In this document: positions 6,637 through 47,607 of the stretch, piece by piece
Position numbering within the stretch: the stretch's first letter is position 1
Layout: the number at the start of each line of letters is the position of its first letter
Origin: Methanolinea sp.
Lineage (GTDB): Archaea; Halobacteriota; Methanomicrobia; Methanomicrobiales; Methanospirillaceae
Direction of reading: 5' to 3'
Length of the DNA: 64,000 bases
Assembly: GCA_025453675.1 (NCBI GenBank)
Contig: JALOPW010000003.1
Span: 1-64,000 of the forward strand
Translations under genes and position numbers: made by a program
The notes under the pieces: generated by a model
Databases searched by the model: none
Seen by the model: only the letters and a program-made list of their open reading frames with translations
What the model was told of the DNA's origin: nothing

Positions 6637-9600
6637 TTATCTGACATATATCCGGCGGGAGGTGGTGCTGCTCCCCGCAGCGTTCTGCACAGTCAGCACA
6701 GCGCTGTAGGTTCCAGAAGCAGTGTAGGTATGGGTGGGGTTCTTCTGAGATGAGCTGGACCCGTCACCAAAGTTCCATGCCCAGCTGATTGGACTGCCAA
6801 CAGACCTGTCAGTGAAGTGCACAGTCAAAGGCGCGAATCCCATCGTGCGATCGGTTATGAAGAACGCAATCGGAGATCTCGGTGCGGTGACCCAGACGGT
6901 GCGGGATAAGGAATTGCTCCCGCCGCTGTTATACACGGTCAGTGTTGCGGAATACTTACCTGGTGCAGTGTAGGTATGGACGGGGTTCTGGAGCGAAGAG
7001 CCGGAACCGTCACCGAAATTCCACTCCCACCTCGATGGCATACCTCGTGACAGGTCGGTGAAGGACACTGTCAGGGGAGCGGATCCGATACTCGGGGAAA
7101 GAGAGAAAGAGGCGACTGGTGGTGGTCCGAACGGGTTGACCGTGATGTAATCCGGTTTCACCTCAGTTGCCTGCCCCCCGGCATTCCCTACAGTGAGGCT
7201 CACAGAATAAGATTCCGGCAGCGAGTAGACGTGGGTGACTCCAGTGGTTGCATTTGCCCATGCTGAGGTCCCGTCACCAAAGTCCCACAAGCGGGAGGTG
7301 ACTGTTCCCGCAGAGGTGTCAGTGAAGCTGACCTCCAGCGGGGCGTTCCCTGAGAGGGGGGTCGCCACAAAGGCCGGCTCAGGGGGGAGTACCTGGGTTA
7401 CATTGATGAACTGCACTTTAGTGGTGGTATCGCTCCCGTATGGGCTGTTCACAGTGAGTGTGACGTTGTAGAGGCCTGGATTCTGGTATAAATGCTCAAC
7501 CCAGGGATAATCTTCGGTGACCCCTGAACCATCGCCAAAGTCCCATATCCACTCGTCATTGTAGTACCACCAGGAGGTATATGCGTCAAATTCGACCATC
7601 AGGGGAGCCGGCCCCTCGGTTGGGTAGGCATAGAAGTCCGCGACAGGTGGAGGGGGACTGACCTGGATGTAGTCTACTTTCTCAATCGTATCAGTCTCCC
7701 CGGTCCTGCTTACGGTGAGAGTCACGGAGTAGTTCCCCGGGGAGTTGTACGTCACTACAGGGTTCTTCTCGGATGATACCTGGCCGCCGGAATACGGATA
7801 GGCACTGTCCATCACTTCTCCATCCAGCACATAATAATACCCGGATTCGAAATACCAGGACCAGGAACTCGGGTTGCCCTCCGAAGCATCCAGGAACTGG
7901 ACTGTAAGAGGTACAGTCCCATTGGTCACATTGGAGGCGAAATCTGCATTCAGCGGAGCAACTGCGCCAACGATAATATAACCGTCTTTCGATTCGACAC
8001 TGCTCCCCCCGCCATTCGTTGCGGTCAGAGTGACATTATAGGTTCCCGCAGAGGCATACGCATGCACGGGGTTCTTCTCGGTTGAGCTCATGCCATCGCC
8101 GAAGTCCCACCCGTAAGTTATGAGGGGGGAACCGGATGTCTGATCTATGAAACTGACAGTCAGGGGCAGATCGCCGCTTCTTGGGGAGGCGGTGAATTCT
8201 GCCACTGGCGGTGGGGGTGACTGTGTCCCGATAAAATTCTCACGGACAACGGTGTCAGAGAGACCGTCGGCCGATACCGTGAGGATTACCGTATAGACCC
8301 CCGAATTCATGTAGGTATGCACTACCATATAGTCCGGACTCGTTGAATTGGGGCTGCCGTCCCCGAAGTCCCATTCATAGGAGAGGTTCTCGTAATACCC
8401 CCCATATGACCATTGTTGGAACGTCACTGTGAGTGGGAATGATCCGTCCATCGGCCAGGCATTAAAGTCTGCTTCTGGTGGATGAGGCGTCACAGTGAGG
8501 TAATCTGTTTTTAACTCAGTATCACTGCCAAAGGGATTTGTGACCGTCAGTGAGACGGTAAAATTCCCGGGCTCTGCATACCAGTGCCAGGGATCCATGT
8601 AAGTACTTGTAGAGCCGTCTCCGAAATCCCATATATATTCAGTCGGTTCTCCGGTTGAGAGATCGTGGAATACAACATATTGATTGGTATAGAGGGAAGT
8701 ACTGGTGACATTGAAATCAGCATGTGGGTGTTCACCGGTCGTTATATACTGGGCCTTCTCCATCGTGTCAGTCCCATAACTGTTCGAGACGGTGAGATTT
8801 ACGGTAAACACTCCCGGGAATGCGTATTGATGTGATGGATTCCGGGAGGTCGAGGTGTTCCCGTCACCAAAACTCCAGAGCCACGACGTGGGAGTGCCGG
8901 TTGAGAGGTCGGTGAAATTGACCGTCAACGGGATTGATCCCGAAGTGGGGGTGCCTGAGAAATCAGCCACGGGGATACGCTGGGAGACCTGGATATAATC
9001 CACTTTGGTAGTCGTATTGGTGCCACCCGAATTCCCCGAGGTAAGGCTCACTGTGTAGGCTCCCGGATTCTGGTAAGTATGAGCCGGGCTCTGCATGGAT
9101 GAACTCTGACCGTCGCCGAACTGCCATAACCAGGTTGAATGATTTCCGAGGGTGGTGTCATAGAACTGCACAGGGAGCGGCTCTCCCCCGGAGGTGGGAA
9201 CAGCAATGAAATCAGCCTGTGGTACCTGTTCGAAGACCCGGATATAGTCGTTCATGATCCTGGTACTGTTCCCCCCATCGTTTTCGACCATGAGGCTGAC
9301 CGAGTATGTGCCCGGGGTGTGGTAAACGTACAATGGGTCGGAGGCAGTCGAAGTGCCACCATCACCAAAAGTCCATGACCACCCCGTGATATCGACTCCT
9401 GACGAGGTGTCGGTGAAGAGTACGTGGAGGGGAGAGTTCCCTGCAGTGAGGTTTGCAGAGAAAGACGCGGTGGGAGGAGCATTGGTCACGGTGATATAAG
9501 AGGGAATGGAGTAAGTGTCGCTCCCTCCATCATTCCCGACCGTAAGGCTCACATTGTAACTTCCAGGGGCAGTATACGGATGAAGGGGATCTGAAGACGT

Positions 9601-10074
9601 GGAAGTGTTTCCATCGCCGAAGTCCCAGAGGTAACTGGTGATTACTCCCGTGGAGAGATCATTGAACTGCACAGGAAGCGGCACAGGGCCATTGAGGGGT
9701 GTTGCACTGAAGGCAGCCACGGGTGGCGGGTTGGTAACCTGTATATACCCTGCCCTTACCATCGTATCACTCCCGCTGCTGTTTGCAACGGTCAGGCTCA
9801 CCGTGAAATTTCCAGTAAGACCATACTGGTGCAGCGGATTCTGCAGGTTGGTGGATGTCCCGTCACCAAAATACCAGAGCCAGGAAGTGACACAGCCTGT
9901 GGAATGGTCGTTAAACTGTACATTGAGCGGAGTAACACCACTGAGGGGCGATGCGGTAAAATTCGAATACAGTACGTCTGCGCTCACGGGGACCAGCCCT
10001 GCGGTGATCAGGAGAAGGGCTGCAAGGAGGGTGATTCTCACCCTGCAGGATTGAGGGTTATACATAACATTCAT
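6637..10074 (-). CDS. Secreted multi-PKD-domain surface protein
   Basis: A 1145-residue exported protein. An N-terminal signal peptide (hydrophobic core ITLLAALLLITAGLVPVSA) is followed by 13 consecutive PKD domains of roughly 85 residues. Each is recognisable by a PL-V-F-D strand, a W-FGDG turn and an H-Y--PG-Y-V-LTV end. The sixth lacks the usual PL motif, and the ninth and tenth carry insertions. The last PKD runs to the C-terminus (SRRIYVR), and I see no membrane anchor or sorting signal. PKD arrays are known as adhesive or spacer modules of archaeal cell surfaces. Residues near the start may be trimmed, since ATG also occurs at codon 4. Confidence 0.9.
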   Translation of the reverse strand: MNVMYNPQSCRVRITLLAALLLITAGLVPVSADVLYSNFTASPLSGVTPLNVQFNDHSTGCVTSWLWYFGDGTSTNLQNPLHQYGLTGNFTVSLTVANSSGSDTMVRAGYIQVTNPPPVAAFSATPLNGPVPLPVQFNDLSTGVITSYLWDFGDGNTSTSSDPLHPYTAPGSYNVSLTVGNDGGSDTYSIPSYITVTNAPPTASFSANLTAGNSPLHVLFTDTSSGVDITGWSWTFGDGGTSTASDPLYVYHTPGTYSVSLMVENDGGNSTRIMNDYIRVFEQVPQADFIAVPTSGGEPLPVQFYDTTLGNHSTWLWQFGDGQSSSMQSPAHTYQNPGAYTVSLTSGNSGGTNTTTKVDYIQVSQRIPVADFSGTPTSGSIPLTVNFTDLSTGTPTSWLWSFGDGNTSTSRNPSHQYAFPGVFTVNLTVSNSYGTDTMEKAQYITTGEHPHADFNVTSTSLYTNQYVVFHDLSTGEPTEYIWDFGDGSTSTYMDPWHWYAEPGNFTVSLTVTNPFGSDTELKTDYLTVTPHPPEADFNAWPMDGSFPLTVTFQQWSYGGYYENLSYEWDFGDGSPNSTSPDYMVVHTYMNSGVYTVILTVSADGLSDTVVRENFIGTQSPPPPVAEFTASPRSGDLPLTVSFIDQTSGSPLITYGWDFGDGMSSTEKNPVHAYASAGTYNVTLTATNGGGSSVESKDGYIIVGAVAPLNADFASNVTNGTVPLTVQFLDASEGNPSSWSWYFESGYYYVLDGEVMDSAYPYSGGQVSSEKNPVVTYNSPGNYSVTLTVSRTGETDTIEKVDYIQVSPPPPVADFYAYPTEGPAPLMVEFDAYTSWWYYNDEWIWDFGDGSGVTEDYPWVEHLYQNPGLYNVTLTVNSPYGSDTTTKVQFINVTQVLPPEPAFVATPLSGNAPLEVSFTDTSAGTVTSRLWDFGDGTSAWANATTGVTHVYSLPESYSVSLTVGNAGGQATEVKPDYITVNPFGPPPVASFSLSPSIGSAPLTVSFTDLSRGMPSRWEWNFGDGSGSSLQNPVHTYTAPGKYSATLTVYNSGGSNSLSRTVWVTAPRSPIAFFITDRTMGFAPLTVHFTDRSVGSPISWAWNFGDGSSSSQKNPTHTYTASGTYSAVLTVQNAAGSSTTSRRIYVR

Positions 10075-11050: not shown

Positions 11051-11257
11051 AAAAAAACTACATGATTCCTTCGAGATATACGCATATGCATTCATGAAAA
11101 TGGCTCGGCCATACTCATATTCACACACTATGAATTCCTTTCAGGATTTCAGACATAAATTTCGAAAATCACGAGGTGATTTTGGTATGAAAACCGCATC
11201 CGCGGTTTTCATCAGGGGGGGCATGTGACCCGACGATCTCATGTGCGTTTCATTCGG
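11051..11257 (+). repeat. Dispersed hairpin repeat, copy B (full length)
   Basis: The second full copy (about 207 bases), in the same orientation as copy A. Its third hairpin is perfect: ATGAAAACCGC and GCGGTTTTCAT with loop ATCC (11187-11212). The middle hairpin is AAAATCAC-GAG-GTGATTTT. The first hairpin has two mismatches. The copy sits between the convergent TPR gene and the NifD-like gene and ends three bases before the latter's stop codon. Confidence 0.8.
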
Positions 11258-11260
11258 AAA

Positions 11261-12418
11261 TCAGGGACTTGTACGCTCCCTGATCATGCTGAGAACGGCA
11301 TTTCCGCCTTCAGGGCCTGCAGTCCTCTGGCTTCCGTGCATTACGTCGATGAGGGGGATCCCAAGCCTTGCGGCGAGAGGGCGCTCCATCAGCCCGCCGA
11401 TGATCAGCCCGATACGGTGACTTTTCAGGGAATCTTCAATATCATCCCAGTCAGGGGAGACCAGAAGAGTACATTCGTCACCTGCGGCAACCCTCACATC
11501 AGAAATGAGCGGAGTCTCAAAGTCGAGGATGATCATCACCGGGGCCATGCCATGGATGGAAAGGAACCGGGCAAGGGCAATCGCCCTGGTGGGGCCGGCA
11601 AAGAGTGCGACATGTGGTGGGTGAAGAGGCGCGCTGGTTTCCGGGGATTGGACTAAAAGTGAAGGGACGGAGGATATGTTGAGTGCAGAGGCCACGTGTA
11701 TCAGGAATTCCTGGCTCAATTCAGCACCGATAGGAAACACGCACCGTATATATGGTGTCCCAAATCGCTGCTGCAGGTATTGGGCGACCTGTAATCCTGA
11801 TGTTTCGCATATCACGATATTCAGAGACGCAGACCCGGTAGTGCGAAGCTGTGCGTATGATGCACCCGCAGGGATCACTACCCCCACAATAAGGCCAAGG
11901 AGCGAGAGAAGGCGGCGTATTTCACGCAGATCGGGCCCCGCCCTGAGCAATCCAATAATGTTAACGGTCCGGGGGATTGGCGTCTCCACAGGTTCTGCAA
12001 TCTCCGATACGATGGTGCTCAGGGTCCTGGCATATCCTTCGGTGAAATTGCCGGTAAAGCCACCCGCATCGATGCTGATCACTCTCGCCCGGGTCCGGGC
12101 GACCCGGCAGGCATTCTGGACATCCTCGCCGATTATCCCGGATGCACAGCAGGAGAGCACCACAATAATCTCCGGCTTTTTTCCGGCATCGAGGTCCTCG
12201 ATAGCCTGCTTCAACCGCTCTTCAGCCCCAAAGATGACGTCATGCTCATCCATGCAGGTGCAGTAGACCTGGCTGTGGTGGTCTCCCCGGAGCCCAAGGA
12301 TATAGTTGATATGGTACACGCACCCTTTTGGTCCATGCACGAGGATAACGGTGTCCTTCATGGTGGCTGCAGCCTTGATGGCCCCAAACAGGCTGCAGGT
12401 GAGGCGGGGGACCTCCAT
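11261..12418 (-). CDS. Solitary nitrogenase component-1-like (NifD-like) protein
   Basis: A member of the nitrogenase component-1 superfamily (385 residues from the ATG at 12418), the fold used by NifD/NifK, BchN/B and CfbD. It keeps all three cysteine positions that hold the P-cluster or a 4Fe-4S cluster in relatives: Cys8 in TCSLFGA, Cys33 in HGPKGC and Cys91 in LSCCASGIIGED, plus an additional CTC at 53-55. The start at 12418 places the first cysteine at the same distance from the N-terminus as in the paralogues at 44.9 and 45.9 kb. An in-frame ATG at 12538 would add 40 low-complexity residues. No NifH or second subunit is adjacent. The upstream same-strand gene is a LarE-type sulfur transferase 258 bases away. 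Substrate and cofactor are unknown. Confidence 0.8.
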   Translation of the reverse strand: MEVPRLTCSLFGAIKAAATMKDTVILVHGPKGCVYHINYILGLRGDHHSQVYCTCMDEHDVIFGAEERLKQAIEDLDAGKKPEIIVVLSCCASGIIGEDVQNACRVARTRARVISIDAGGFTGNFTEGYARTLSTIVSEIAEPVETPIPRTVNIIGLLRAGPDLREIRRLLSLLGLIVGVVIPAGASYAQLRTTGSASLNIVICETSGLQVAQYLQQRFGTPYIRCVFPIGAELSQEFLIHVASALNISSVPSLLVQSPETSAPLHPPHVALFAGPTRAIALARFLSIHGMAPVMIILDFETPLISDVRVAAGDECTLLVSPDWDDIEDSLKSHRIGLIIGGLMERPLAARLGIPLIDVMHGSQRTAGPEGGNAVLSMIRERTSP

Positions 12419-12676
12419 GGATTGAAGAGGAGTGGACACAGCAGAAGGATATGGTGAAGTGTGGAATGTAATAGTATCTCTTTGGGGAGGCCTCCACCTG
12501 CCCCATCCCCCTGTCATACCCACCGGGTAAATTGCCACGGATATCCCCCAATCCGGTTCACCTTAACGTCACAGGTCCTGCCACACATTCTTTTGGGAGA
12601 GTCATGAATAAGGAAAAGAGACCGAATGCCCCGATACTGCCCCCTTATTCTTCAAATGGTACGAACTCCCCGGGTG

Positions 12677-13507
12677 TCAGAGCGGCTCTCCTGTATGACC
12701 CCCGGGTAGGATCCCCCTGTCCATGCTCCCGCTGCGCAGCCCTTCCAGATCAAGGGTGCAGTAGAGGAGCCCGAGTTCCCGCATCCGGGTGGTGATAAAT
12801 TCCTTGTGCAGAATGAGGCGGGGCATATCCTCTTCTGGGACTTCGATCCGGGCAAGTGTTCCATGCACTCGCACTCTCACGCGGGGGAATCCTCTCTCCC
12901 CCAGGAACTGTTCCGCATCTTCAATCTTCTGCAGGAGATCCCTGGTGATGTGATCGCCGTAGGGTATACGGGTTGCCAGGCAGGGAGTGGACAAAAGGTT
13001 CCAAAATGTGTATCCCTTCTCCCTGGAGATGGCCCTTATCCTCGGTTTTTGTAAGCCGCATTCAGCAAGAGGGTGCAGGATGCCCTCTTCATCGGCTGCC
13101 CGCAAACCTGGCCGGAACTCTTCGAGGTCAGAGGGATTCACACCGTCCATGACCACCCCCAACCCATAATCTGTTGCTTTTCCCCGTAAGATTGCGGAGC
13201 TCCTCTTCTTGCATATATAACACCGGTGAGGGGGATTGTGCCGGAACTCTTCATCCTCGAGTATTGGGAACGGCACCACCTCGCAGGGTATTCCGAGAAA
13301 GGCCGCCCGGGCTTTTGCATCCTCAATGGTATGCCTTGGTACCAGCGGGGAGTCCAGCAACACGCATCTCACCCTCCCCGGAACCGTCTCCTCTGCAACT
13401 GCTGCCAGAAACGAGCTGTCCAGCCCGCCAGAGTAGGAGATGACCATGCCCCCGGATTCTTTCAGGTAGCGCTTGAGTGCCCGTATGGAATCTTCCCTGG
13501 AAATCAT
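12677..13507 (-). CDS. larE: LarE-type ATP-dependent sulfur transferase
   Basis: A PP-loop ATP pyrophosphatase of 276 residues with the motif SGGLDSS (residues 26-32). In LarE enzymes the tetrapyrrole-free nickel-pincer nucleotide precursor is adenylated and then thiolated. Cys176 in STPCLATR sits at the position known as the sacrificial cysteine of LarE. With the pair Cys96 and Cys99 (CYICK) it forms the three-cysteine pattern of LarE types that use a 4Fe-4S cluster instead of sacrificing a cysteine. No larB or larC is in the window. It is divergent from moeB and lies upstream of the NifD-like gene on the same strand, so a thiolation step linked to that protein or to MoaD-type sulfur chemistry is possible. 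Confidence 0.82.
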   Translation of the reverse strand: MISREDSIRALKRYLKESGGMVISYSGGLDSSFLAAVAEETVPGRVRCVLLDSPLVPRHTIEDAKARAAFLGIPCEVVPFPILEDEEFRHNPPHRCYICKKRSSAILRGKATDYGLGVVMDGVNPSDLEEFRPGLRAADEEGILHPLAECGLQKPRIRAISREKGYTFWNLLSTPCLATRIPYGDHITRDLLQKIEDAEQFLGERGFPRVRVRVHGTLARIEVPEEDMPRLILHKEFITTRMRELGLLYCTLDLEGLRSGSMDRGILPGGHTGEPL

Positions 13508-13588
13508 GCCCTCTGCTCCCTGATAACCGGCCGGAAAGTCCGGATGACCTCGGGATGGTTGTTACACACCATTATGTTTCAGGATGAC

Positions 13589-13598
13589 TAAATATACT
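13589..13598. promoter_or_regulatory. TATA box in the larE/moeB divergent promoter
   Basis: TAAATATACT lies in the 143-base space between larE (minus) and moeB (plus). It is about 55 bases before the moeB ATG and, read on the other strand, about 85 before larE. It is the only strong TATA-like element there, so it may serve one or both genes. Confidence 0.4.
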
Positions 13599-13650
13599 CT
13601 ACAATGCATGCCTCCGCGGGAATGCCTGATATGTAAATGGAGAGAACCTG

Positions 13651-14385
13651 ATGCTTTCTGAGAGAGAGCGCCAACGTTATATACGCCAATTACCCCTGAT
13701 TGGAGAAGAAGGGCAGGAACGTCTCCAGAGCGCATCAGTCTGCATCGCCGGTGCAGGCGGCCTGGGGTCGCCGGTCTCGCTCTACCTGGCCGCGGCAGGT
13801 GTCGGGCACATACGGCTGATCGATCCCGACCGGGTGGAGAGGAGCAACCTGAACCGGCAGATTCTGCATGCGGAACCAGATCTTTTCCGTTTCAAGGTAG
13901 AATCGGCTGCTGATAAACTCGAGGCGTTGAATCCTGATATTCGGATCGAGCCATTGCCTGTTGCGTTCAACGTTGAGAATGCCTCCCGGGTGGCATTCGG
14001 CATGGACCTTCTTCTGGATGCCCTTGACAACTACGAGGCCCGTTACCTCCTGAACAGGGTGGCATTCGATCAGGGCACCCCCCTTGTCCATGCAGCGGTG
14101 AGCGGATTTCATGGGCAGCTGACCACTCTCATCCCCGGCGAGACCCCCTGCCTGCAGTGCATCATGCCATATCCCCCTGAAGGAGAATATTCCCCGGTGC
14201 TTGGGGTCACGGCGGGAATATTAGGCCTCCTGCAGGCACTGGAGGCTATAAAATTACTGATCAGGGAGGGCGAATTAGCCACGAACATCCTGATGGTCTG
14301 GGATGGCAGGTGTGGCAGGCTTGATCAGATCCCTCTCACGAGAGACCTGGGATGCGTAGTGTGCGGAGCTGGTGGTAAAAAGTGA
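13651..14385 (+). CDS. moeB: MoeB/ThiF-type E1-like adenylyltransferase
   Basis: A 244-residue ubiquitin-activating-like enzyme that adenylates the C-terminal glycine of a MoaD/ThiS/SAMP-type carrier. It has the Arg finger region near the start (RYIRQLPLIG), the nucleotide-binding GAGGLGSPV (about 34-42), and DPDRVERSNLNRQ. Two Cys pairs (CLQC and CVVC) should bind zinc. There is no rhodanese domain. The stop overlaps the start of the following MoaD-like gene by one base, and moaE follows, so molybdopterin synthase activation is the likely role. ThiF-like or sampylation functions cannot be excluded. Confidence 0.88.
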   Translation: MLSERERQRYIRQLPLIGEEGQERLQSASVCIAGAGGLGSPVSLYLAAAGVGHIRLIDPDRVERSNLNRQILHAEPDLFRFKVESAADKLEALNPDIRIEPLPVAFNVENASRVAFGMDLLLDALDNYEARYLLNRVAFDQGTPLVHAAVSGFHGQLTTLIPGETPCLQCIMPYPPEGEYSPVLGVTAGILGLLQALEAIKLLIREGELATNILMVWDGRCGRLDQIPLTRDLGCVVCGAGGKK

Positions 14386-14666
14386 TGATAAAAGTGCATA
14401 TAAGATCCTTTGCGAGGTTCAGGGAGTTGTTTGGCGATCGCTTTGAGGTGGAAGTCTGTCAACCGGCCACCATACGCTCCGTGGTCCAGGCGGTGGGGCA
14501 GAGGAACAGGGATGGCCTGCAGGAACTGATGGATGGTGAGGGGAAGGTGAAACGGTCCGTGATTCTGCTTATAAACCGGGAACGAATCACTGGCGAGGGA
14601 AGGGAAAACCATCCGGTTGCCGAGGGTGACGAAGTGGCAATATACCCCCCGGTGGCAGGCGGATAA
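14385..14666 (+). CDS. moaD: MoaD-like sulfur carrier
   Basis: A 93-residue ubiquitin-fold protein ending in the exposed Gly-Gly tail (YPPVAGG) needed for adenylation and thiocarboxylation. The segment EGDEVAIYPPVAGG is typical of MoaD, the small subunit of molybdopterin synthase. The ATG at 14385 overlaps the moeB stop. A GTG three bases earlier is an alternative. MoeB should activate it and MoaE should accept it. Confidence 0.86.
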   Translation: MIKVHIRSFARFRELFGDRFEVEVCQPATIRSVVQAVGQRNRDGLQELMDGEGKVKRSVILLINRERITGEGRENHPVAEGDEVAIYPPVAGG

Positions 14667-14682
14667 TTGGAAGGTGACTGAT

Positions 14683-15084
14683 ATGATACGGATCACCAGG
14701 GAGGAATTTGACCCTGCAGGGCTCCTCGAGGAGGCACGGAGCGCAGAACTGGGAGCCCTTGTCAGCTTTCTCGGTATCGTGAGGGATGATGGGATTGAAA
14801 GGATGGATCTCGAGGCGCATGAGGAAGTAGCCGAGCAGGATCTTTTCCGCATAAGAAAAGAGGCTATTGCCAGGTTTGGTGTCCACCGGGTGGATATCGT
14901 GCACAGGATAGGATCGCTGTCGGTAGGCGATCATATTGTCATGATTATTGTCGGGGCCCCTCACCGGAAGGCCGCGTTCCAGGGATGCGAGTACGTCATT
15001 GATCAGATAAAGGAGTCTGTGCCGATCTGGAAGAAAGAGTACACTGCCCGGGGTTCACGATGGGTCCCGGGCGAGCATGAATGA
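14683..15084 (+). CDS. moaE: Molybdopterin synthase catalytic subunit MoaE
   Basis: The 133-residue large subunit of molybdopterin synthase, which turns cyclic pyranopterin monophosphate into molybdopterin with sulfur from MoaD thiocarboxylate. Family motifs are present: the early GALVSFLGIVRDD loop, IVGAPHRKAAF, and PIWKKEY with the catalytic lysine. The start at 14683 has GGAAGGTGA upstream. The longer open frame (from 14617) overlaps moaD and lacks family similarity. It completes a moeB-moaD-moaE operon, consistent with tungsto- or molybdopterin enzymes such as formylmethanofuran dehydrogenase in a methanogen. Confidence 0.9.
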   Translation: MIRITREEFDPAGLLEEARSAELGALVSFLGIVRDDGIERMDLEAHEEVAEQDLFRIRKEAIARFGVHRVDIVHRIGSLSVGDHIVMIIVGAPHRKAAFQGCEYVIDQIKESVPIWKKEYTARGSRWVPGEHE

Positions 15085-28262: not shown

Positions 28263-28662
28263 ATGCCAGGATATGAACATTCCAACCATTACACTGGATA
28301 ATTTGCCTCCTCGCTGTTTTGTGTGGGGAGACTGAATCGAGGTTGTTATTTGCATACCAATTCAGTCACTCCAACCGCCGCCGCTTTTCGTGTATGGTAC
28401 ATGGTTTCAGGATAACCCTCCCATCAAGGAAAATCCATTGGCAGCCGAAGTGCTGCCTCAGTTTCGAAAGGTGGAACTTTCCCGGCAATTTCGGGGGCGG
28501 CGGCCCGGCATTGCATATGGGGGTGTGGGGGCGGACAGCCCCAACAATTTGTATCCGGTTCATCAATCCTTCCCACAACAGATGCCGAAGAGCCGATAAT
28601 TTTAAGGGGAAGATCTATTTTCAGGTAATTTGAGTGCAGCCGAAAAATTGGAGAAGAAGAAG
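28263..28662. other. Intergenic stretch before tRNA-Glu, no gene seen
   Basis: Frames on both strands are short and mutually overlapping, with no start signals. I see G/C-rich and AT-rich blocks (TTTTAAGGGG near 28603) but no domain, repeat or RNA structure. It lies downstream of the tRNA gene. Confidence 0.35.
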
Positions 28663-28737
28663 TGCTGCTATGGGGATTCGAACCCCAGTCGCCGGCGTGA
28701 AAGGCCGGCATGATTGGCCGGACTACACTATAGCAGC
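28663..28737 (-). tRNA. tRNA-Glu (anticodon UUC)
   Basis: The minus strand folds into a complete cloverleaf: acceptor arms GCTGCTA and TAGCAGC pair perfectly, the anticodon stem CCGGC/GCCGG holds the loop CTTTCAC with anticodon TTC, and the T arm is GGGTTCGAATCCC. The D-arm region GTGTAGTCCGGCCAATCAT is typical of archaeal tRNA-Glu. The 3' CCA is not encoded, and there is no intron. Confidence 0.95.
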
Positions 28738-28806
28738 AATTGCTCTTTTTTATAGGTTGTTCACGGTAAAAAGAGTTGTGGAGCCGGTTGTCTGGAGAGA
28801 ACCCAT

Positions 28807-29673
28807 TCAATAGACCGGGGTGCCTTCTTTCTCGGTGACGGTCTTGAAGGCAGCCATCAGCTGACGGGTGATGGGGCCTGGCCGGCCGGATCCGATGCTC
28901 CTTCCATCGATGAGGACGATGGGAGCAACCTCTGCGGCAGTCCCGGTGACAAAGACCTCGTCTGCAGTGTAGAGGTCAAAATAACCGAGATTTGTCTCAT
29001 GGACCGGGATCCCGAGATGAGCGGCAATCTCCAGCACCACCAAGCGGGTGATCCCTCTCAGGTTGTTCAGGGTGGGAGGTGTCAGGATAACCCCGTTCTT
29101 TACGATATAGATGTTGTCGCCTGATCCCTCTGAGATGTTCCCCTGCATGTCGAACATGATGGCCTCGTCCCCACCCTTGCAGTTGGCCTCGATCTTGGCC
29201 AGGATGTTGTTTAAGTAGTTGAGAGACTTCACGTTTGGCGGCAGGGAGCAGCAGGGGTTCCTCCTGATAGAGACCGTCACGCCGCGGAGCCCCTTCTCAT
29301 AGAGGTCCCCATACATGGCCCCCCATTCGGTAGCGATGATGATAACGGTAGCCTTCGGGCATTTCGTGGGACAGAGCCCGAGGTCCCCCACCCCCCGGGT
29401 GACGAGAGGCCGGATATATGCATTCTTCAGGTCGTTCTTTCGACAGGTATCCACAATGGCCCGGGTCATCTCTTCCTTGCTCATGGGAATACAGAGGTCG
29501 ATGGTCTTCGCCGAGTCGTAGAGCCGGTCCAAATGTTCGGGGAGCCGGAATATACGCCCGTTGTACATACGTATCCCCTCGAAGACCCCGTCCCCATAGA
29601 GGAGGCCGTGGTCGAAGACAGAGATCTTGGCCTCCTCTTTTGGATAGAACTTCCCGTCGATATACACAAACAT
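28807..29673 (-). CDS. ilvE: Branched-chain amino acid aminotransferase
   Basis: A 288-residue class IV PLP aminotransferase that transfers amino groups between glutamate and the oxo acids of Val, Leu and Ile. Family features are the start [33 protein letters not shown], the PLP lysine in KSLNYLNN, and [17 protein letters not shown]. It has the usual length. It lies 45 bases downstream of cfbB on the same strand and may be read from the same transcript. The leu genes at 48-51 kb belong to the same pathway. Confidence 0.92.
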
Positions 29674-29718
29674 GAGATGAATGTTTATTCTCCTGGTATT
29701 TTTTACCTGCTGATTGAT

Positions 29719-31101
29719 TCAGGCATTCCTGGCCTGCCGGCAGGTGGCGAGGAATTGCAGGAACATGGGGAGGCTTGCCACAGGATGGAGATGGGTATAA
29801 CTTCCGATGGTCCTGTCCAGCAAGGCGCCGTCAGCTCCCCTGGAGATACCCTCGCCCCTGGAGAGGGAATAGACAAACTGTGTGCCCGGGTGAAGGGAAA
29901 CATCTGAATAATGGAACTCGTGCCCCCTGAAACAGTGATCCCCCATGGGAGAGCCGGGCAGGCTCCTCCCCTCCACATACGCGACCACCCTCCTGGCAGG
30001 CATGGTGGTCTTTCCGTGGAAGATACCACACATGGGGTGGCGTACTTCCTCCTTCTGCCCGCGCCAGCCCGCGTTCAGGACGATCTCGTCAGTAAGGTAC
30101 ATCAGCCCCCCGCACTCGGCATAGACAGGGACGCCCTGTGCGGAGGCTTCGCGAAGATCCCGTTTCATGTTGACATTTGCGGCAAGACCCGGGAGGAAGA
30201 GCTCAGGGTATCCCCCTCCAAAGATATAGCCATCGGCCTCTGGAAGCGGGTCACGGAGCGGGCTGAAGAACACGGTGCTGGCCCCCCCTGCGTGCAGGAC
30301 ATCAAAGAGGTCGGCATAATAGAAATTGAACGCCTCGTCAAACGCAATGCCAATCGTGAGGTCGGGGTCTTTTCTCGGTGCAAAAAGACCAGATGATGGT
30401 GCCGCTCGTGTGACGGTACAGGCCACAGAGAGGAGCTGGTCAAGGTTTACGTGCTCTCCAATCCTTTCTGTCACAATTAGTATCCTGTCTTGAAAGTCCC
30501 GGTTCTCCTGCCCCTCCCGGTAGGGCATCAAGCCGAGGTGGCGCATGGCCAGTTCCATCTCGGCCATGCGGGGGATTGCCCCGATCACCGGGATGCCGCA
30601 ATAATGCTCAATAGCAGTGCTTGCCTTCTTGATATGCTTCTCTCCCGCCACATTGTTCAGGATGACTCCGGCAATCCTGATCTGAGGATCGAATCCCTGG
30701 AATCCCCTGACCAGTGCAGCGGCACTCCTGGTGATACTCCGGGCATTCACCACCAGCACAACAGGGAGATCCAGGATCCTCGCCACCGAGGCGCTGCTCC
30801 CGCTCTCATCCAGGGCTTCAGCCCCCTCGTAGAGCCCTCGCACGCCCTCAACGAGAGCCAGGTCGGCACCGGTGCAGCCATGGTCGAATATCGTATGCAC
30901 CTGGCTCTCGTCCATGACATAGGTATCCAGGTTGCGGCAGGGGCGTCCGGTGACCCCGGAGAGGTAGGAGGGATCTATATAATCCATTCCCACCTTGAAG
31001 GTCTGGACAGTCATTTTCCGGGAGAGGAGTGCGGCAATTGCCAGGGTAATGCTGGTCTTCCCGCTCCCTGAACGGTCCCCGGCAATCATCAGGGCTCTCA
31101 T
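29719..31101 (-). CDS. cfbB: Ni-sirohydrochlorin a,c-diamide synthase CfbB
   Basis: A 460-residue enzyme of the CobB/CbiA family. The N-terminal domain has the P-loop GDRSGSGKTS and the C-terminal glutaminase domain carries the cysteine in VPVYAECGGLMYL. It amidates the a and c acetate side chains of Ni-sirohydrochlorin with glutamine and ATP. The cobyrinate diamide synthase CbiA is similar, but linkage to cfbA, cfbE and cfbD points to F430 synthesis. The start overlaps the cfbD stop by four bases. Confidence 0.9.
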   Translation of the reverse strand: MRALMIAGDRSGSGKTSITLAIAALLSRKMTVQTFKVGMDYIDPSYLSGVTGRPCRNLDTYVMDESQVHTIFDHGCTGADLALVEGVRGLYEGAEALDESGSSASVARILDLPVVLVVNARSITRSAAALVRGFQGFDPQIRIAGVILNNVAGEKHIKKASTAIEHYCGIPVIGAIPRMAEMELAMRHLGLMPYREGQENRDFQDRILIVTERIGEHVNLDQLLSVACTVTRAAPSSGLFAPRKDPDLTIGIAFDEAFNFYYADLFDVLHAGGASTVFFSPLRDPLPEADGYIFGGGYPELFLPGLAANVNMKRDLREASAQGVPVYAECGGLMYLTDEIVLNAGWRGQKEEVRHPMCGIFHGKTTMPARRVVAYVEGRSLPGSPMGDHCFRGHEFHYSDVSLHPGTQFVYSLSRGEGISRGADGALLDRTIGSYTHLHPVASLPMFLQFLATCRQARNA

Positions 31102-32177
31102 GCCATGCTCCGCACCACTGCACCGAGTTCGCTCTCCACGATCTGCTGGACACCCAGGGTCCGGGGGTGGAGATCCACCTCCACCACCACATAGCGATGC
31201 CCAGTCTCCCTCAGCGGCTCAACCTGCCGGGGACCGTTGGTGACCGAGATACACTCCACCCCTTCCAGGTAGTGTGGGGGGATGGCATGCGGTACACCGA
31301 CAATGAACGCAAATTCAGGTGAAAGCGCCCTGATCTGTTCCCCGAGCGCATCACCATTGGCTCCATACTCGTCAAGCGCCCCGCAGAGTGTGGGGATAAG
31401 CCCCTTGTCCCGCAGTTCATCTCTTATTCGCCGGCAATCCTGCCTCACTTTGGGGAGGCCCCTCTCTTCCAGGTTGGCGATATAGGTGACGCGGGCATCG
31501 GGGCAGACCTGGTGCAGCGCCAGCAGCTCATCGGCGAACATGTAGGCCGTCTCTTTCTTGGCATTCATGATGGCAACTCCCCGCCTGCCGCTTCGCGCAA
31601 GGTTCAGGAGTCGTTCGGCTGCCAGATGCTTTAAGTCACCCCGGGAGGGCTCGATATATGGCCTGGATGCCGCCCCCCTGAGCCTCTCCACCTCGTTCGC
31701 ACTGGCAAGGAGCATCTTCTGCCGGTTCAGTTCAGCTTCACTTATCCAGCCAGCTGCGGCGGCAGGCTCGAGTGTGGCAATAACCCCCTCGATATTCTCC
31801 GGGAACCCTGCGTGGATCTCTACTGAAATGGTGGGGGTTGAGATACCTGCGTTTCCTATCGCGGACTGGAGATCCTCCCCGATGATCATGGATACGCATG
31901 TCCCGACCACTGCCATTCTGCGGGGAGAAAATGTCTTTTCAGCGTACCTGAGCACCGCCTCCAGGGGCTGCTGGCCGCCGAAGATAAACTCATGATCGGC
32001 AAGCGAGGTGGTCAGGACCCGCATCCCATCCTCCTCCAGGAGCCGGGCATGCTTGAAGGAACATCCCGATGGGCCGTGCAGGATAGCGACATCCACATCC
32101 AGGTCTCTTGCGGTATAGAGGGCCGCAACGATGGAACTGGGCCGCGGCTGCATGTACTTCATAGGATTCACCGCCAT
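31098..32177 (-). CDS. cfbD: Ni-sirohydrochlorin a,c-diamide reductive cyclase subunit CfbD
   Basis: A 359-residue NifD-like protein. With the NifH-like CfbC it carries out the reduction and lactam ring formation that give seco-F430. It keeps two of the three nitrogenase-type cysteines, Cys39 in HGPSGC and Cys94 in GTCVSMIIGED, while the N-terminal one is absent. That is the CfbD pattern of a homodimer with one 4Fe-4S cluster. It overlaps cfbE by ten bases and cfbB by four. Its reductase partner CfbC is not in this operon. Confidence 0.9.
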   Translation of the reverse strand: MAVNPMKYMQPRPSSIVAALYTARDLDVDVAILHGPSGCSFKHARLLEEDGMRVLTTSLADHEFIFGGQQPLEAVLRYAEKTFSPRRMAVVGTCVSMIIGEDLQSAIGNAGISTPTISVEIHAGFPENIEGVIATLEPAAAAGWISEAELNRQKMLLASANEVERLRGAASRPYIEPSRGDLKHLAAERLLNLARSGRRGVAIMNAKKETAYMFADELLALHQVCPDARVTYIANLEERGLPKVRQDCRRIRDELRDKGLIPTLCGALDEYGANGDALGEQIRALSPEFAFIVGVPHAIPPHYLEGVECISVTNGPRQVEPLRETGHRYVVVEVDLHPRTLGVQQIVESELGAVVRSMA

Positions 32178-33376
32178 GTCTTCACCGCGAGCACCACCAT
32201 CCGTCCTTTCGCCTCCTTCAAAGCCAGGGCCTCGCCTTCTGCGAGGCTGTTACACCACTCGATGTGCAGATCGTTCTGTAAGGAAGAGAATATATGAGTG
32301 TCATATCCCTGCCCCACCAGGATGACATTGTCCGGCCGCTCCGACTGTACCACTCCCACGATGTCTTCTGCGGGAAATCCCTCGCAGATTGCCCCATCCT
32401 CCTTGCCGATGACAAGGGTGAGTGGGCCCCTGAAACCAGATGCCCGCCTGGCGAACCGTATAGCCTCTCTCGCCGTCAGGGCACAGGTTCCGGAGTTGGA
32501 ATCATCCACTACCGCGGTGTCACCATGCCACGAGAATGCCATCCTTCCCTTGAGTGAGGAGAACGTGGAGAGGGGTGACGGATCCAGACCCATGATGCAG
32601 GCAGCAGCAGCAGCGAGGGCAATCGGATTCCGGTAAGCTTCGGTCTCAAGGAGAGGGTTGGAAAATTTCCCCCGAATCCCCTCCCAGGTATACCTGCATA
32701 CGTCACCATCCACGCTGGCGATATCGTCCGCCGGCACCGTATTGCCACCAAGAACCGTTCCCGGTGGGGTGATTATCCTCGGGAGCAGAGACCCGGAGCG
32801 GAGCTTCTCCCCCAGCGCATCCTTCTCTCCTCCGGCAAAGCGATACGTGTCCCCGGAGGTCAGGATACCCAGTTGACCGGCACCAATGAACCCGAGCGAG
32901 ATCTCCGCAATCATCCATCCGCCAACAGTATGAGCGGCAGAAGCGGCTTTGATAAGAGATGCCGGGGTGATCCCGTCATGTCCGTGGAGATTCTTCCCGG
33001 GAAAGGAGACGGTTCCCATTGAGGTATGGAGAACGCCAGGGCCTTTCATCAGGTGGGCCAGCGCATGGGCCGTGGTGGTCTTTCCCCGGGCGCCGGTAAT
33101 CTCGACCAGGGGGGAAGGGAGTTCTCTTCCCATTACCCACCTCACTGCCTGGTGATGGGTGACCGCAGGTGCGGGAATTGACCTGAGCAGAGGATATCCC
33201 GGGTACAGGTGCACCGGTGCGATCACGAGGTCATAGTCCGATCTCTCCGCAGAACGGGGACTTATTCCTTCTTTTCCCCGATACACATCCACCATCTCCA
33301 CCAAGTACCCGCGCTCCAGCAGTGCCCTGGCTATGATCTTCCCCCCGTGGATGGTATCCAGTACCAGGATTCGCAT
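32168..33376 (-). CDS. cfbE: Coenzyme F430 synthetase CfbE (MurF-like)
   Basis: A 402-residue Mur-ligase-like ATP-dependent enzyme that closes the six-membered carbocyclic ring of F430 (15,17(3)-seco-F430-17(3)-acid to F430). The P-loop is EITGARGKTTTAHALAH (about 112-128). The central region includes HGDTAVVDDSNSGTCALTAREA as in Mur ligases. Linked genes place it in F430 synthesis and not in cell-wall synthesis. The start lies four bases downstream of the cfbA stop. Confidence 0.88.
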   Translation of the reverse strand: MRILVLDTIHGGKIIARALLERGYLVEMVDVYRGKEGISPRSAERSDYDLVIAPVHLYPGYPLLRSIPAPAVTHHQAVRWVMGRELPSPLVEITGARGKTTTAHALAHLMKGPGVLHTSMGTVSFPGKNLHGHDGITPASLIKAASAAHTVGGWMIAEISLGFIGAGQLGILTSGDTYRFAGGEKDALGEKLRSGSLLPRIITPPGTVLGGNTVPADDIASVDGDVCRYTWEGIRGKFSNPLLETEAYRNPIALAAAAACIMGLDPSPLSTFSSLKGRMAFSWHGDTAVVDDSNSGTCALTAREAIRFARRASGFRGPLTLVIGKEDGAICEGFPAEDIVGVVQSERPDNVILVGQGYDTHIFSSLQNDLHIEWCNSLAEGEALALKEAKGRMVVLAVKTWR

Positions 33377-44012: not shown

Positions 44013-44090
44013 CAAGGGATACCCATCTATTCAACTTTACTTTTGTTAACATCAGAATAGCTCATTACCAATCCCATCCAATACTGGGTG

Positions 44091-44906
44091 ATGAAACAGA
44101 TAGCCCTGTACGGGAAAGGCGGTATCGGGAAGTCAACCACTTCGGCCAACCTCTCTGCTGCTCTCTCCGAGCAGGGGCTCGACGTGTTGCAGATCGGGTG
44201 TGATCCCAAGCGTGACAGCACAAGGATGCTGATGCAGGGGAGGCTGATTCCCACCGTCATGGACCTGGTCCGGGAACAGGGGGACCGGACGCTCACCCTT
44301 GAAGATGTAGTCTACCGGGGATATCACGGAGTCAGGTGCGTGGAGGCAGGAGGTCCCGAACCCGGCGTTGGGTGTGCAGGACGGGGGATCATCGCCACGT
44401 TCCAGATCCTCGAGAGGCTGGGAGCGCTTCGTGCCGACGTGGTGGTCTATGATGTTCTCGGGGATGTTGTCTGTGGAGGATTTGCCATGCCCATGAGGGA
44501 AGGGTATGCAGAAGAGGTCTATCTGGTGACCTCCGGGGAACTGATGTCCCTGTATGCGGCAAATAATATCTGCAAGGCAATATCGAGGCTCTCTTCCCGG
44601 GCCCGGAGCAGGTGCCGCCTGGCAGGGGTGATCTGCAATGCAAAGAACCTGCCCCGGGAAGAGGAGCTGGTCGCTGAATTTGCACAGAAAATTGGCAGTT
44701 CCATGGTCCAGTTCATTCCAAGGGACCAGGTGGTCCAGCAGGCCGAACTGAACAAAAAGACGGTCGTGCAATATGCCCCGGCATCAGGCCAGGCAGAGAT
44801 CTACCGGTCACTTGCCCGGCAGATCACGGGGAACTGCCGGCTGGACATCCCAGTTCCGCTGGAAATTGAAGATCTGGAAGCACTTGCGTATGACTTCTCT
44901 CTATGA
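44091..44906 (+). CDS. NifH-like ATP-dependent electron donor of an uncharacterised nitrogenase-like system
   Basis: A 271-residue protein of the NifH/BchL/CfbC family. The P-loop [15 protein letters not shown] (residues 7-21), the cluster cysteines Cys95 in [12 protein letters not shown] and Cys128 in [10 protein letters not shown], and the switch motif DPKRDST all fit a homodimer with a bridging 4Fe-4S cluster that passes single electrons with ATP hydrolysis. It overlaps the next gene by 17 bases. The linked NifD- and NifK-like genes are its likely clients. It could also be CfbC, serving cfbD, since no other NifH is in the window. True nitrogen fixation is unlikely, because nifE/N/B are absent. 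The ATG at 44091 is chosen over a GTG three bases before it. Confidence 0.9.
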
Positions 44907-45909
44907 TGATGGGTGCACGCTGACAGGAGCGCTCTCGGTGACCACCGAGATCGCCCGGTGCATCACGCTCATTCATGGACCTTCCGGATGTGCACACCAT
45001 AATTTCTCCCTCCTCCACGCGCTTCATGCGGCACAGGGTCGGATGGTCCCGCCTCTCCTCATATCCACGGACATGACGGAGAAAGAGGTCATCTTCGGGG
45101 GTGAGCGTCTGCTTGAGGAGACCATCCGCAGTGTAGTAAAAAGAAGACCTGATCTGGTCTGCGTGCTCTCCACCTGTGTCACCGCGACTATCGGTGATGA
45201 TGTGGACGCAGTATGCCATGGGTCGTATCAGACGCCGGTGGTGCATATACCCACAGGAGGATTTATTGGGGGGGGTTTCCTTGATGGGCATATCCAGGCT
45301 CTTGTTTCCTTGTCCCTCCCTGCAAAAGAGAGTGAGAAGACCCCATCTGTCAACCTTATCGGGGAGAAAACCCTGGAGTATGAGGTGAATGAGCATTACC
45401 AGGAAATAAAGCGGCTTCTCTCCCTCGTTGGCGTCCCGGTGAATGTCCGGTTTGTCTCTGGGACGACGTTTCATGATCTTGCGCATCTCGGGAGGGCGTC
45501 ATTGAATATTCTTCGGGATCCATCCATGGTGCCGGTGGGAGAGCATCTCAAACGGGAATTTGGTACTCCGTTTATCGAATCCTTTCCCCTCGGCATGGAG
45601 GGTACGCTCCGGTTCCTGGAGAGGGTGGGTTCCCACTTTTCGATTGACGTGACCGGGGCCGTGACAGGTGAAGAGGCAATTCAGAAGGCGATGGTGCAGG
45701 ATTTCTCCTCCCTGAAGGGGAAGAGGATCATATTCGATGCATCCCCGATGACGGATGTGCATTCCTGTTACGGGTACGAGCTGGCAGAGATGCTCGAACT
45801 GGAGATTCACGAACAGGGAGACCCTGTCCCTCTCCCTGATCCCTTCCCTGTCGGCACATCGGGGATTCGAAGGTTGTTGCAGCGGTGGAGGAGGAGATGC
45901 CATGCCTGA
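44890..45909 (+). CDS. NifD-like subunit of an uncharacterised nitrogenase-like system
   Basis: A 339-residue component-1 protein, much shorter than NifD (about 480) and near CfbD in length. Unlike CfbD it keeps three cluster-type cysteines: Cys9 in GCTLTGA, Cys34 in HGPSGC and Cys96 in [11 protein letters not shown]. The C-terminus ends in basic residues and has no counterpart of the NifD segment with the FeMo-cofactor histidine. The real start is the ATG at 44890, inside the nifH-like gene's end. Residues upstream in the longer frame are the nifH-like gene read out of frame. It overlaps the next gene by eight bases. Substrate unknown. Confidence 0.85.
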
Positions 45910-47065
45910 ATGTGCCGGGCCGCTGTGGCCGTGCAGTCTGACGGGGGCGGCAGCGTGCCTTTCGGGTGTGAGGGGGATGGGGGTGATCATCCATGGGTCT
46001 GCGGGGTGCTATTTTTACCCGGCAACTACCCTTCACAGCCCTCTGTACTGCACTTCCCTCTCAGACCAGGATATCATCCTTGGAACAGATGAGGCCCTGG
46101 TCAGGACCATTGACTCCCTCCAGGGGAAATACCACTCTCTCTCAGTCCTGTGTACCTGTACTCCCGCAATCACGGGAGAGGATATTCGTGCGGTTCTCGA
46201 GGAGCGTTACGGGGAGTCTGCCCGGATACTCGTGCTCGATGCACCAGGGTTCACCGGCGAGTACGAGGAAGGATTCATGGCAGGCATCTCTGCGCTGCGG
46301 TTATGTGCATCAGAGGGTCTTTTACAATCCGTAAATATTGATGGACTCTCACTTATGGACCCTTTCTGGAGGGGAAACCTGCAGGAAATCCAGCGACTTC
46401 TCCGGCTGGCTGGTGCGGGATGCGGAGCAACTCTCTGTGCCGGAGAGTTTTCCTGTGATTCCGGGCTTTCCCCATGCACCGTCCATGCGAATCCAGACCT
46501 CCGGTCCAGCTATGGCGGGTCCCTCGGATCAATGCTCGGGATCTCAAGGTTAAAAAAGACCCTCCCGCTTCTCGAGGATCGGTATGGAGATGGTGGAGGG
46601 AGACTCTCGGAGCATATCCTTCCTGATGCGGAGGAGCGGATTTGCGCCGCGTGCGACAAATATCTCAAAAGGTTCAATCCTCCATCTGTGGGATTGTTCG
46701 GGCAGTGTGCGTCCATGCAGGAGATCGCGTCCATGCTGGACGAGTACCTCGGGGTGGAGGTCTTGTTCATCGCGTCCAGGAATACGCCTTTCAATGGACC
46801 TTTCCCGGTAGAGATGGTCCGGGATTATGGAAAAGTCCAGGAGATGCTGGAGCGGGAGCGCCCCGATCTTATACTTGGATCTTCATTTGAACAGACTGCC
46901 TGCCCTTCTGCAGCCTTCGTGGGAGTGACACCGCCGTTGCGGGGAATGGTGAAGCTCCATGCACGCCCTATGGCAGGGATAGAAGGTGCCCTTGCGCTCG
47001 TGGAATCCGTGCTGAATGCCTGCATGGATCATCAGAGATCCCCGTATTCTGGTATCCGGTGCTGA
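45902..47065 (+). CDS. NifK-like subunit of an uncharacterised nitrogenase-like system
   Basis: A 387-residue component-1 protein, the second subunit of the pair. It also has three cluster-type cysteines: Cys11 in PCSLTGA, Cys36 in HGSAGC and Cys86 in CTCTPAITGED. Additional cysteines are in the C-terminal half (ERICAACDKY). The start ATG at 45902 overlaps the preceding stop (ATGCCTGA). A heterodimer or heterotetramer with the NifD-like protein is expected, with a 4Fe-4S or P-cluster-like center at the interface. No known cofactor assembly genes are linked. Confidence 0.85.
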   Translation: MPECAGPLWPCSLTGAAACLSGVRGMGVIIHGSAGCYFYPATTLHSPLYCTSLSDQDIILGTDEALVRTIDSLQGKYHSLSVLCTCTPAITGEDIRAVLEERYGESARILVLDAPGFTGEYEEGFMAGISALRLCASEGLLQSVNIDGLSLMDPFWRGNLQEIQRLLRLAGAGCGATLCAGEFSCDSGLSPCTVHANPDLRSSYGGSLGSMLGISRLKKTLPLLEDRYGDGGGRLSEHILPDAEERICAACDKYLKRFNPPSVGLFGQCASMQEIASMLDEYLGVEVLFIASRNTPFNGPFPVEMVRDYGKVQEMLERERPDLILGSSFEQTACPSAAFVGVTPPLRGMVKLHARPMAGIEGALALVESVLNACMDHQRSPYSGIRC

Positions 47066-47111
47066 AATTCCATCTCTTTTTAAATTCACTTTCACCCCGC
47101 GCTCATCGAGA

Positions 47112-47121
47112 CTTTATATAC
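47112..47121 (+). promoter_or_regulatory. TATA box for the gene at 47161
   Basis: CTTTATATAC lies about 45 bases before the ATG at 47161 and is followed by AGGAGAGGTGG (47145-47155). Together they support a separate promoter and the 47161 start, rather than the upstream GTG at 47059 that overlaps the NifK-like gene. Confidence 0.45.
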
Positions 47122-47160
47122 TCATTGCTCCAGACAGAGGATGCAGGAGAGGTGGATGAA

Positions 47161-47607
47161 ATGCAAAGGGCAGGATATCTCAGCCGGGATGGAAAGAAAG
47201 TCCTTGATGCGGACGGAATTCCACGGGAGATTCTTGATCTTCATATCTATGGAGCGCGGCTCTGCATACTCATCGATGACCTCATACACTCTATTCAGAA
47301 GGGGACCTCTGCCAGTGTGGAGAGGGTCAAGCAGAACTGGATGGAATATCTTGGTGGACAGGCGGGGAAGGCACGGGTTTCCCGATCAGGAAAGGCCCTC
47401 AACATTGAACTGGTGAACGGTGACCGGTACACCCTCTCGCTTGATTCGCTGCGGGAGGTTCTCGGGTACAGGGAACGTGTTGCCCGGATCATGGAACTTC
47501 CCCCCACATTGCAACAGGAGGGAGCCAGGGATCGCCTCATCACCGATTACTGCCTGCCACTCCCGCCTTTCTGCTCCTCAGAGACTGCGGACAGGATGGC
47601 AGCCTGA
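47161..47607 (+). CDS. Hypothetical protein downstream of the nitrogenase-like genes
   Basis: A 148-residue soluble protein (start MQRAGYLSRDGKKVLDADG). No family recognised. A possible beta-barrel-like segment is GKARVSRSGKALNIELVNGD with a helix-rich N-terminal half. AGGAGAGGTGG precedes the start and a TATA box lies upstream, so the gene may have its own promoter, though the longer GTG start at 47059 would couple it to the NifK-like gene. Its position suggests an accessory role. Confidence 0.65.
   Translation: MQRAGYLSRDGKKVLDADGIPREILDLHIYGARLCILIDDLIHSIQKGTSASVERVKQNWMEYLGGQAGKARVSRSGKALNIELVNGDRYTLSLDSLREVLGYRERVARIMELPPTLQQEGARDRLITDYCLPLPPFCSSETADRMAA

Follow-up and report, generated by a model that had tools for sequence, protein, structure and literature searches.

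An orphan lineage of nitrogenase component-1-like proteins in Methanomicrobiales with aligned candidate cluster ligands and linkage to F430 genes

In NifE, Cys37, Cys62, and Cys124 hold the O-cluster, and Cys250 and Gln419 hold the L-cluster (PMC13031127). The NifD positions Cys62, Cys88, and Cys154 are those of the P-cluster, and in NifD and MarD, the active-site cluster is anchored by a cysteine (PMC12552129). Among members of the family, only CfbD is regarded as a homodimer, and NifB is thought to supply clusters for the activation of MCR even in methanogens that are free of nitrogenase (PMC12176620), which makes an orphan protein with the ligand set described here of interest. This protein, D1, is encoded in the window that we analyzed, a 64,000-nucleotide stretch of DNA from Methanolinea sp. 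(contig JALOPW010000003.1), and we found no published description of its lineage in the literature searched.

An earlier note on this window had pointed to a lone component-1 protein within 11261-13507, and the open reading frame at 11261-12538 on the minus strand indeed matches PF00148 over its full length with 278 bits (cut-off, 28.6). Since the orthologues begin at an equivalent GTG, the gene is most likely 11261..12439 (minus strand) rather than the longest open reading frame, which reaches 12538. It encodes 392 amino acids, numbered here from the GTG at 12439. The AlphaFold2 model, built from 20 sequences (pLDDT, 86.5; pTM, 0.85), has the component-1 fold, and the closest solved structures in a Foldseek comparison were BchB, NifK/AnfK, NifEN, and NifD chains, with TM scores of about 0.8. 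With both a profile score above the gathering score and the three-domain fold, D1 is a member of the PF00148 superfamily. No curated family covered D1 at its cut-off in the NCBIfam search; the top NCBIfam model was BchB with 149 bits, a small margin ahead of NifE with 143 and both far under their cut-offs, and the best PDB profile match was NifE with 178 bits. Judged from its sequence, D1 lies outside each named nitrogenase subfamily tested and clearly within the superfamily. A sigma-70 and terminator scan of 11150-13800, with models that are unsuited to archaea, gave nothing better than shuffled sequence.

The assembly (1.84 Mb, 94% complete) encodes exactly four PF00148 proteins, all on one contig, and D1 is the fourth component-1 protein as the earlier note had counted it, beside D2, K2, and CfbD. 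CfbD (31098..32177, minus strand; TIGR03282, 497 bits over 268) belongs to a cfbE-cfbD-cfbB-ilvE cluster at 28807-33376 on the same strand, in which F430 genes are joined by a branched-chain aminotransferase gene and which is conserved, with cfbA in front of it, in Methanoculleus-type genomes. A 128-amino-acid open reading frame with no family match (28424-28810, minus strand) overlaps the ilvE stop by 4 bp. CfbC (44088..44906, plus strand; NF033200, 419.7 bits over 402) heads an operon at 44088-47607 on the plus strand together with the D-type component-1 protein D2 (44773..45909, plus strand; PF00148, 205 bits), the K-type protein K2 (45755..47065, plus strand; PF00148, 115 bits), and a 182-amino-acid protein without a family. 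D2 forms a clade separate from D1, matched no named subfamily, and was present in 105 of 121 Methanomicrobiales genomes.

CfbC, the single strong PF00142 match and the one NifH-family reductase that the genome was found to encode, is the candidate electron donor for D1, and K2 is the only possible partner for D1 on the K side. A NifB is encoded (355 bits; cut-off, 344), and a profile search of the genome found no canonical nif genes, NifD included. In complete genomes with D1, the PF00148 set consists of D1, D2, K2, and CfbD, while in complete relatives that lack both D1 and other nitrogenase-like operons, it consists of D2, K2, and CfbD; the one set is the other plus D1, so no K-type partner comes with D1. 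Having no such partner of its own, D1 would be either homomeric, like CfbD, or sharing K2. The suggestion that D1 is the missing subunit of the 44-kb operon was not supported and was rejected, as CfbC, a D-type protein, and a K-type protein are already there, and complete genomes without D1 keep D2, K2, and CfbD. D1 was present in 39 and D2 in 105 of the same 121 genomes. The observation that the earlier note had named as refuting its idea, a lack of the operon in genomes that retain D1, was not made either: the operon was present in 37 of the 39 genomes with D1, the two exceptions being drafts (67% and 91% complete).

Five residues of D1, Cys15, Cys40, Cys98, Cys211, and His368, were invariant in all 32 orthologues inspected. 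The first three are the cysteines that had been listed at 8, 33, and 91, as counted from a methionine seven codons downstream of the GTG. With NifE numbered in the A. vinelandii register, Cys15 (codon 12395..12397; this and the following codons are on the minus strand) is aligned with NifE Cys37 and NifD Cys62, Cys40 (12320..12322) with NifE Cys62 and NifD Cys88, and Cys98 (12146..12148) with NifE Cys124 and NifD Cys154, and the 25 residues from Cys15 to Cys40 are identical to the spacing of Cys37 and Cys62 in NifE. Cys211 (11807..11809) is aligned with NifE Cys250 and NifD Cys275, an L/M-cluster ligand, and His368 (11336..11338) is aligned with NifE Gln419, one residue off NifD His442. In the secondary structure of the AlphaFold2 model, Cys211 and His368 each come just after a strand, which would be consistent with both facing one cavity. 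The family alignment has Tyr at the Cys211 position in BchB and Gln in BchN, and the equivalent residue is missing from CfbD, D2, and K2; CfbD also lacks the first interface cysteine. The sequence argues for an 8Fe-type cluster in D1, and against a tetrapyrrole, chiefly through the absence of a Cys211 equivalent from all five of these proteins; that D1 binds such a cluster is our inference from the alignment. What appears to be unusual in D1 is that a dedicated partner is absent while the set of aligned cluster ligands is complete.

A separate linkage of D1 emerged in two other GTDB families, represented by Methanoculleus-type genomes and a genus of the Methanomicrobiaceae. There, the order cfbA-cfbE-cfbD-cfbB-ilvE-D1 on one strand was found in 13 of 14 genomes with D1, contig ends cutting the view in a few. 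The gap between ilvE and D1 is mostly about 60 to 185 bp (59 to 567 bp overall), the 3' flank of D1 is variable at these loci, and the sequence that follows ilvE in relatives without D1 is unrelated. This gene order may derive from just one or two arrangements in their ancestors, and the 13 cases are therefore not independent. Of the earlier idea of a thio-modified tetrapyrrole, the link to tetrapyrroles is the part that gains support here, on evidence other than that which had prompted it.

A position directly 3' of the F430 genes would also suit a D1 that is itself a tetrapyrrole reductase, that is, a second CfbD-like catalytic subunit that would produce a modified F430 by working with CfbC to reduce or tailor F430 itself or one of its intermediates. 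CfbC, the sole reductase available, is known from a tetrapyrrole enzyme, BchB is the closest fold and its model scores slightly ahead of that of NifE, and a clade of D1 with CfbD was not rejected by the tree tests described below. However, the invariant Cys211 and His368 occupy cluster-ligand positions that are absent from tetrapyrrole reductases. Modified F430s whose enzymes have not yet been identified do exist, but the reports of them concern Methanococcales, ANME-1, and an ethanotroph, not Methanomicrobiales (PMC9081873). We consider this explanation, the main rival of the one favored below, unlikely.

Scanning 84,980 species yielded 60 loci. Every strong one was in a Methanomicrobiales-type assembly (Methanolinea, Methanoregula, Methanoculleus, Methanospirillum, and relatives); three weak ones were clostridial nitrogenase-like operons. 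Clostridial NifH-D-K-like operons at three loci (L152, L153, and L154) have one component-1 protein with the D1 motifs HGPKGCVY and LNVVIC. In the class as a whole, D1 was present in 56 of 232 genomes, from four families of the single order Methanomicrobiales. All 13 Methanolinea genomes have D1, and its distribution in other genera is patchy. In a tree of 60 sequences, D1 formed a single clade (support, 100/100), which fell on the D/E side of a split with weak support. The best tree placed it with D2 at a support of 54/48; in AU tests, D1 with NifE was rejected (P = 1.6e-4), while D1 with CfbD (P = 0.36) and D1 with K2 (P = 0.11) were not. D1 belongs to an uncharacterized orphan lineage of component-1-like proteins that is confined to Methanomicrobiales.

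Within the set of 121 genomes, canonical nif genes and D1 were mutually exclusive (0 of 39 genomes with D1 and 19 of 82 without it; P = 4e-4), and one genome with D1 encoded a NifD-family protein that scored under the nifD cut-off. D1 was associated with a separate nitrogenase-like operon (c15/c21; 14/18, P = 2e-5), whose D-type protein carries a cysteine equivalent to Cys211; both P values are from Fisher tests, which ignore shared ancestry. This second operon of Methanomicrobiales, seen at six loci (7755-11368 in L074; L073, L075, L072, L069, and L070), consists of a D-type protein, a K-type protein, and often a NifH, and it scores under every named subfamily cut-off.

The co-occurrence with c15/c21, together with the NifE-like ligand set of D1, the presence of NifB without nif genes, and the F430 gene linkage, could also point to a NifE-like scaffold or carrier that passes the NifB cluster on, either to the MCR activation complex (McrC/Mmp7) or to this second operon. 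In methanogens, McrC/Mmp7 has been described with L-type clusters (PMC12176620). However, all methanogens activate MCR, and not all have D1; c15/c21 is missing from most Methanolinea genomes with D1, and the clade of D1 with NifE was rejected. The weak Gln ligand of A. vinelandii NifE (PMC13031127) is replaced by His in D1, which suggests firm anchoring. A role as a scaffold, the next rival, is, in our judgment, improbable.

LarE is an enzyme of nickel-pincer nucleotide synthesis. The LarE that lies upstream of D1 (12677..13507, minus strand; 276 amino acids) is of the [4Fe-4S] type of ATP-dependent sulfur insertase, as the earlier note had read it: it scores 270 bits on TIGR00268 (cut-off, 150) and has the PP-loop SGGXDS motif and a CXXC-C motif formed by Cys96, Cys99, and Cys176. 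In the LarE of Thermotoga, the CXXC-C motif binds a [4Fe-4S] cluster (PMC9283937). The divergent moeB, moaD, and moaE genes are likewise present, encoding a MoeB/ThiF-type adenylyltransferase (13651..14385, plus strand; PF00899, 223 bits), a MoaD-type small modifier (14382..14666, plus strand; TIGR01687, 51.1 bits over 49.5), and MoaE (open reading frame 14617..15084, plus strand; PF02391, 115.7 bits; start probably at Met23). On the other side of D1, a 1,145-amino-acid protein with tandem PKD-like repeats (6637-10074, minus strand) is conserved near D1 across Methanolinea, and the neighbors of D1 in other genera (k14, k48, k49, k60, and k70) showed no consistent functional theme.

The expected neighborhood of larE and D1 does recur elsewhere, but a functional tie between the two does not follow from it. 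Of the 56 genomes with D1, 13 have larE upstream of it in the same orientation: 8 of the 13 Methanolinea genomes and 5 from two related genera. The 237 bp between the larE stop and the D1 start make an operon of the two genes not evident here, a gene for a TPR protein or tauE (TauE/SafE family) often intervenes, and D1 keeps its place where larE is elsewhere. In two Methanoregulaceae genera (seven loci), D1 is closely preceded by a gene for a TauE/SafE-family transporter. LarE was found in 113 of the 121 genomes, 36 of 39 with D1 and 77 of 82 without it (P = 0.7), so a partnership by phylogenetic profile was rejected. The reading that D1 and LarE together make a sulfur-containing cofactor, or that D1 serves the 44-47-kb operon as a subunit or scaffold, can appeal to the recurrent gene order, at times with the gene for a sulfur-compound transporter in between, and to the presence of larC in a genome in which no larA homologue was found. 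With LarE independent of D1, a linkage limited to related genera, and an operon that is nearly universal and already complete with D2 and K2, we hold it to be very improbable. The best explanation is that LarE is a chromosomal neighbor of D1 and not a functional partner.

The explanation that we favor, with somewhat less than even confidence, is that D1 is an orphan nitrogenase-superfamily protein that is fed by CfbC, carries a NifB-derived cluster, and is tied to F430 or MCR biology. D1 would most likely be an ATP-dependent redox protein on which CfbC docks, with electrons passing first to an Fe-S cluster that Cys15, Cys40, and Cys98 hold at the dimer interface and then to a NifB-derived cluster of the [8Fe-9S-C] type, which has Cys211 and His368 as its anchors. 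At this second cluster, D1 may either reduce a substrate or keep the cluster for the machinery that matures F430 or MCR. It would probably be a homodimer like CfbD or borrow K2. Counting against this explanation are the closest folds, which are BchB and NifK and not NifE, the slight lead of the BchB model over that of NifE, the rejected clade with NifE, and the fact that CfbC, the only reductase at hand, is known from a tetrapyrrole enzyme. As D1 is present in only about a quarter of the genomes, it cannot be essential for F430 or MCR. The full combination, a homomeric D1 with both the interface cluster and the [8Fe-9S-C] cluster that works with CfbC in F430 or MCR biology, is doubtful as a whole. 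If it is true, D1 would exemplify a step that has been postulated between F430 synthesis and nitrogenase, a CfbD-like homomer loaded with clusters. D1 keeps ligand positions that CfbD lacks, and it offers a concrete protein with which to test this proposal and the partner needs of nitrogenase-like enzymes, and it may reveal a new ATP-driven reduction in widespread methanogens.

Compared with known systems, the neighboring LarE shares the SGGXDS and CXXC-C motifs with LarE of Thermotoga maritima and differs in that no larA was found here. D1 shares with NifE the component-1 fold and the equivalents of Cys37, Cys62, Cys124, and Cys250, with His at the position of Gln419, but it scores 142.6 bits against a cut-off of 505.1 on the NifE model, has no NifN partner, and occurs in a host without nif genes. 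An identification of D1 as NifE or a nif remnant was rejected on the lack of canonical nif genes, the rejected clade, and the mutual exclusion of nif and D1. BchB (or ChlB) of the dark-operative protochlorophyllide reductase is the closest fold, with a TM score of about 0.8, but has Tyr at the position of Cys211 and an obligate partner, BchN; the BchB model gives 149 bits on D1 where 490 are required, and the genome has no BchN-type protein. In MarD of methylthio-alkane reductase, Cys270, the equivalent of the NifD Cys275 with which Cys211 of D1 is aligned, anchors the [Fe8S9C] cluster, but MarD is paired with MarK, comes with a MarH and a MarB of its own, and takes its His ligand from another loop (PMC12552129); no H, K, or B genes of its own were seen beside D1 in the loci inspected. 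D1 was also rejected as CfbD itself, as it reaches only 76.4 bits against a cut-off of 268.4 on TIGR03282 and the genuine CfbD is encoded elsewhere in the window. D1 resembles CfbD in being encoded as a lone component-1 protein for which CfbC is the available reductase, though it may pair with K2, and in its place beside the F430 genes in Methanoculleus-type genomes.
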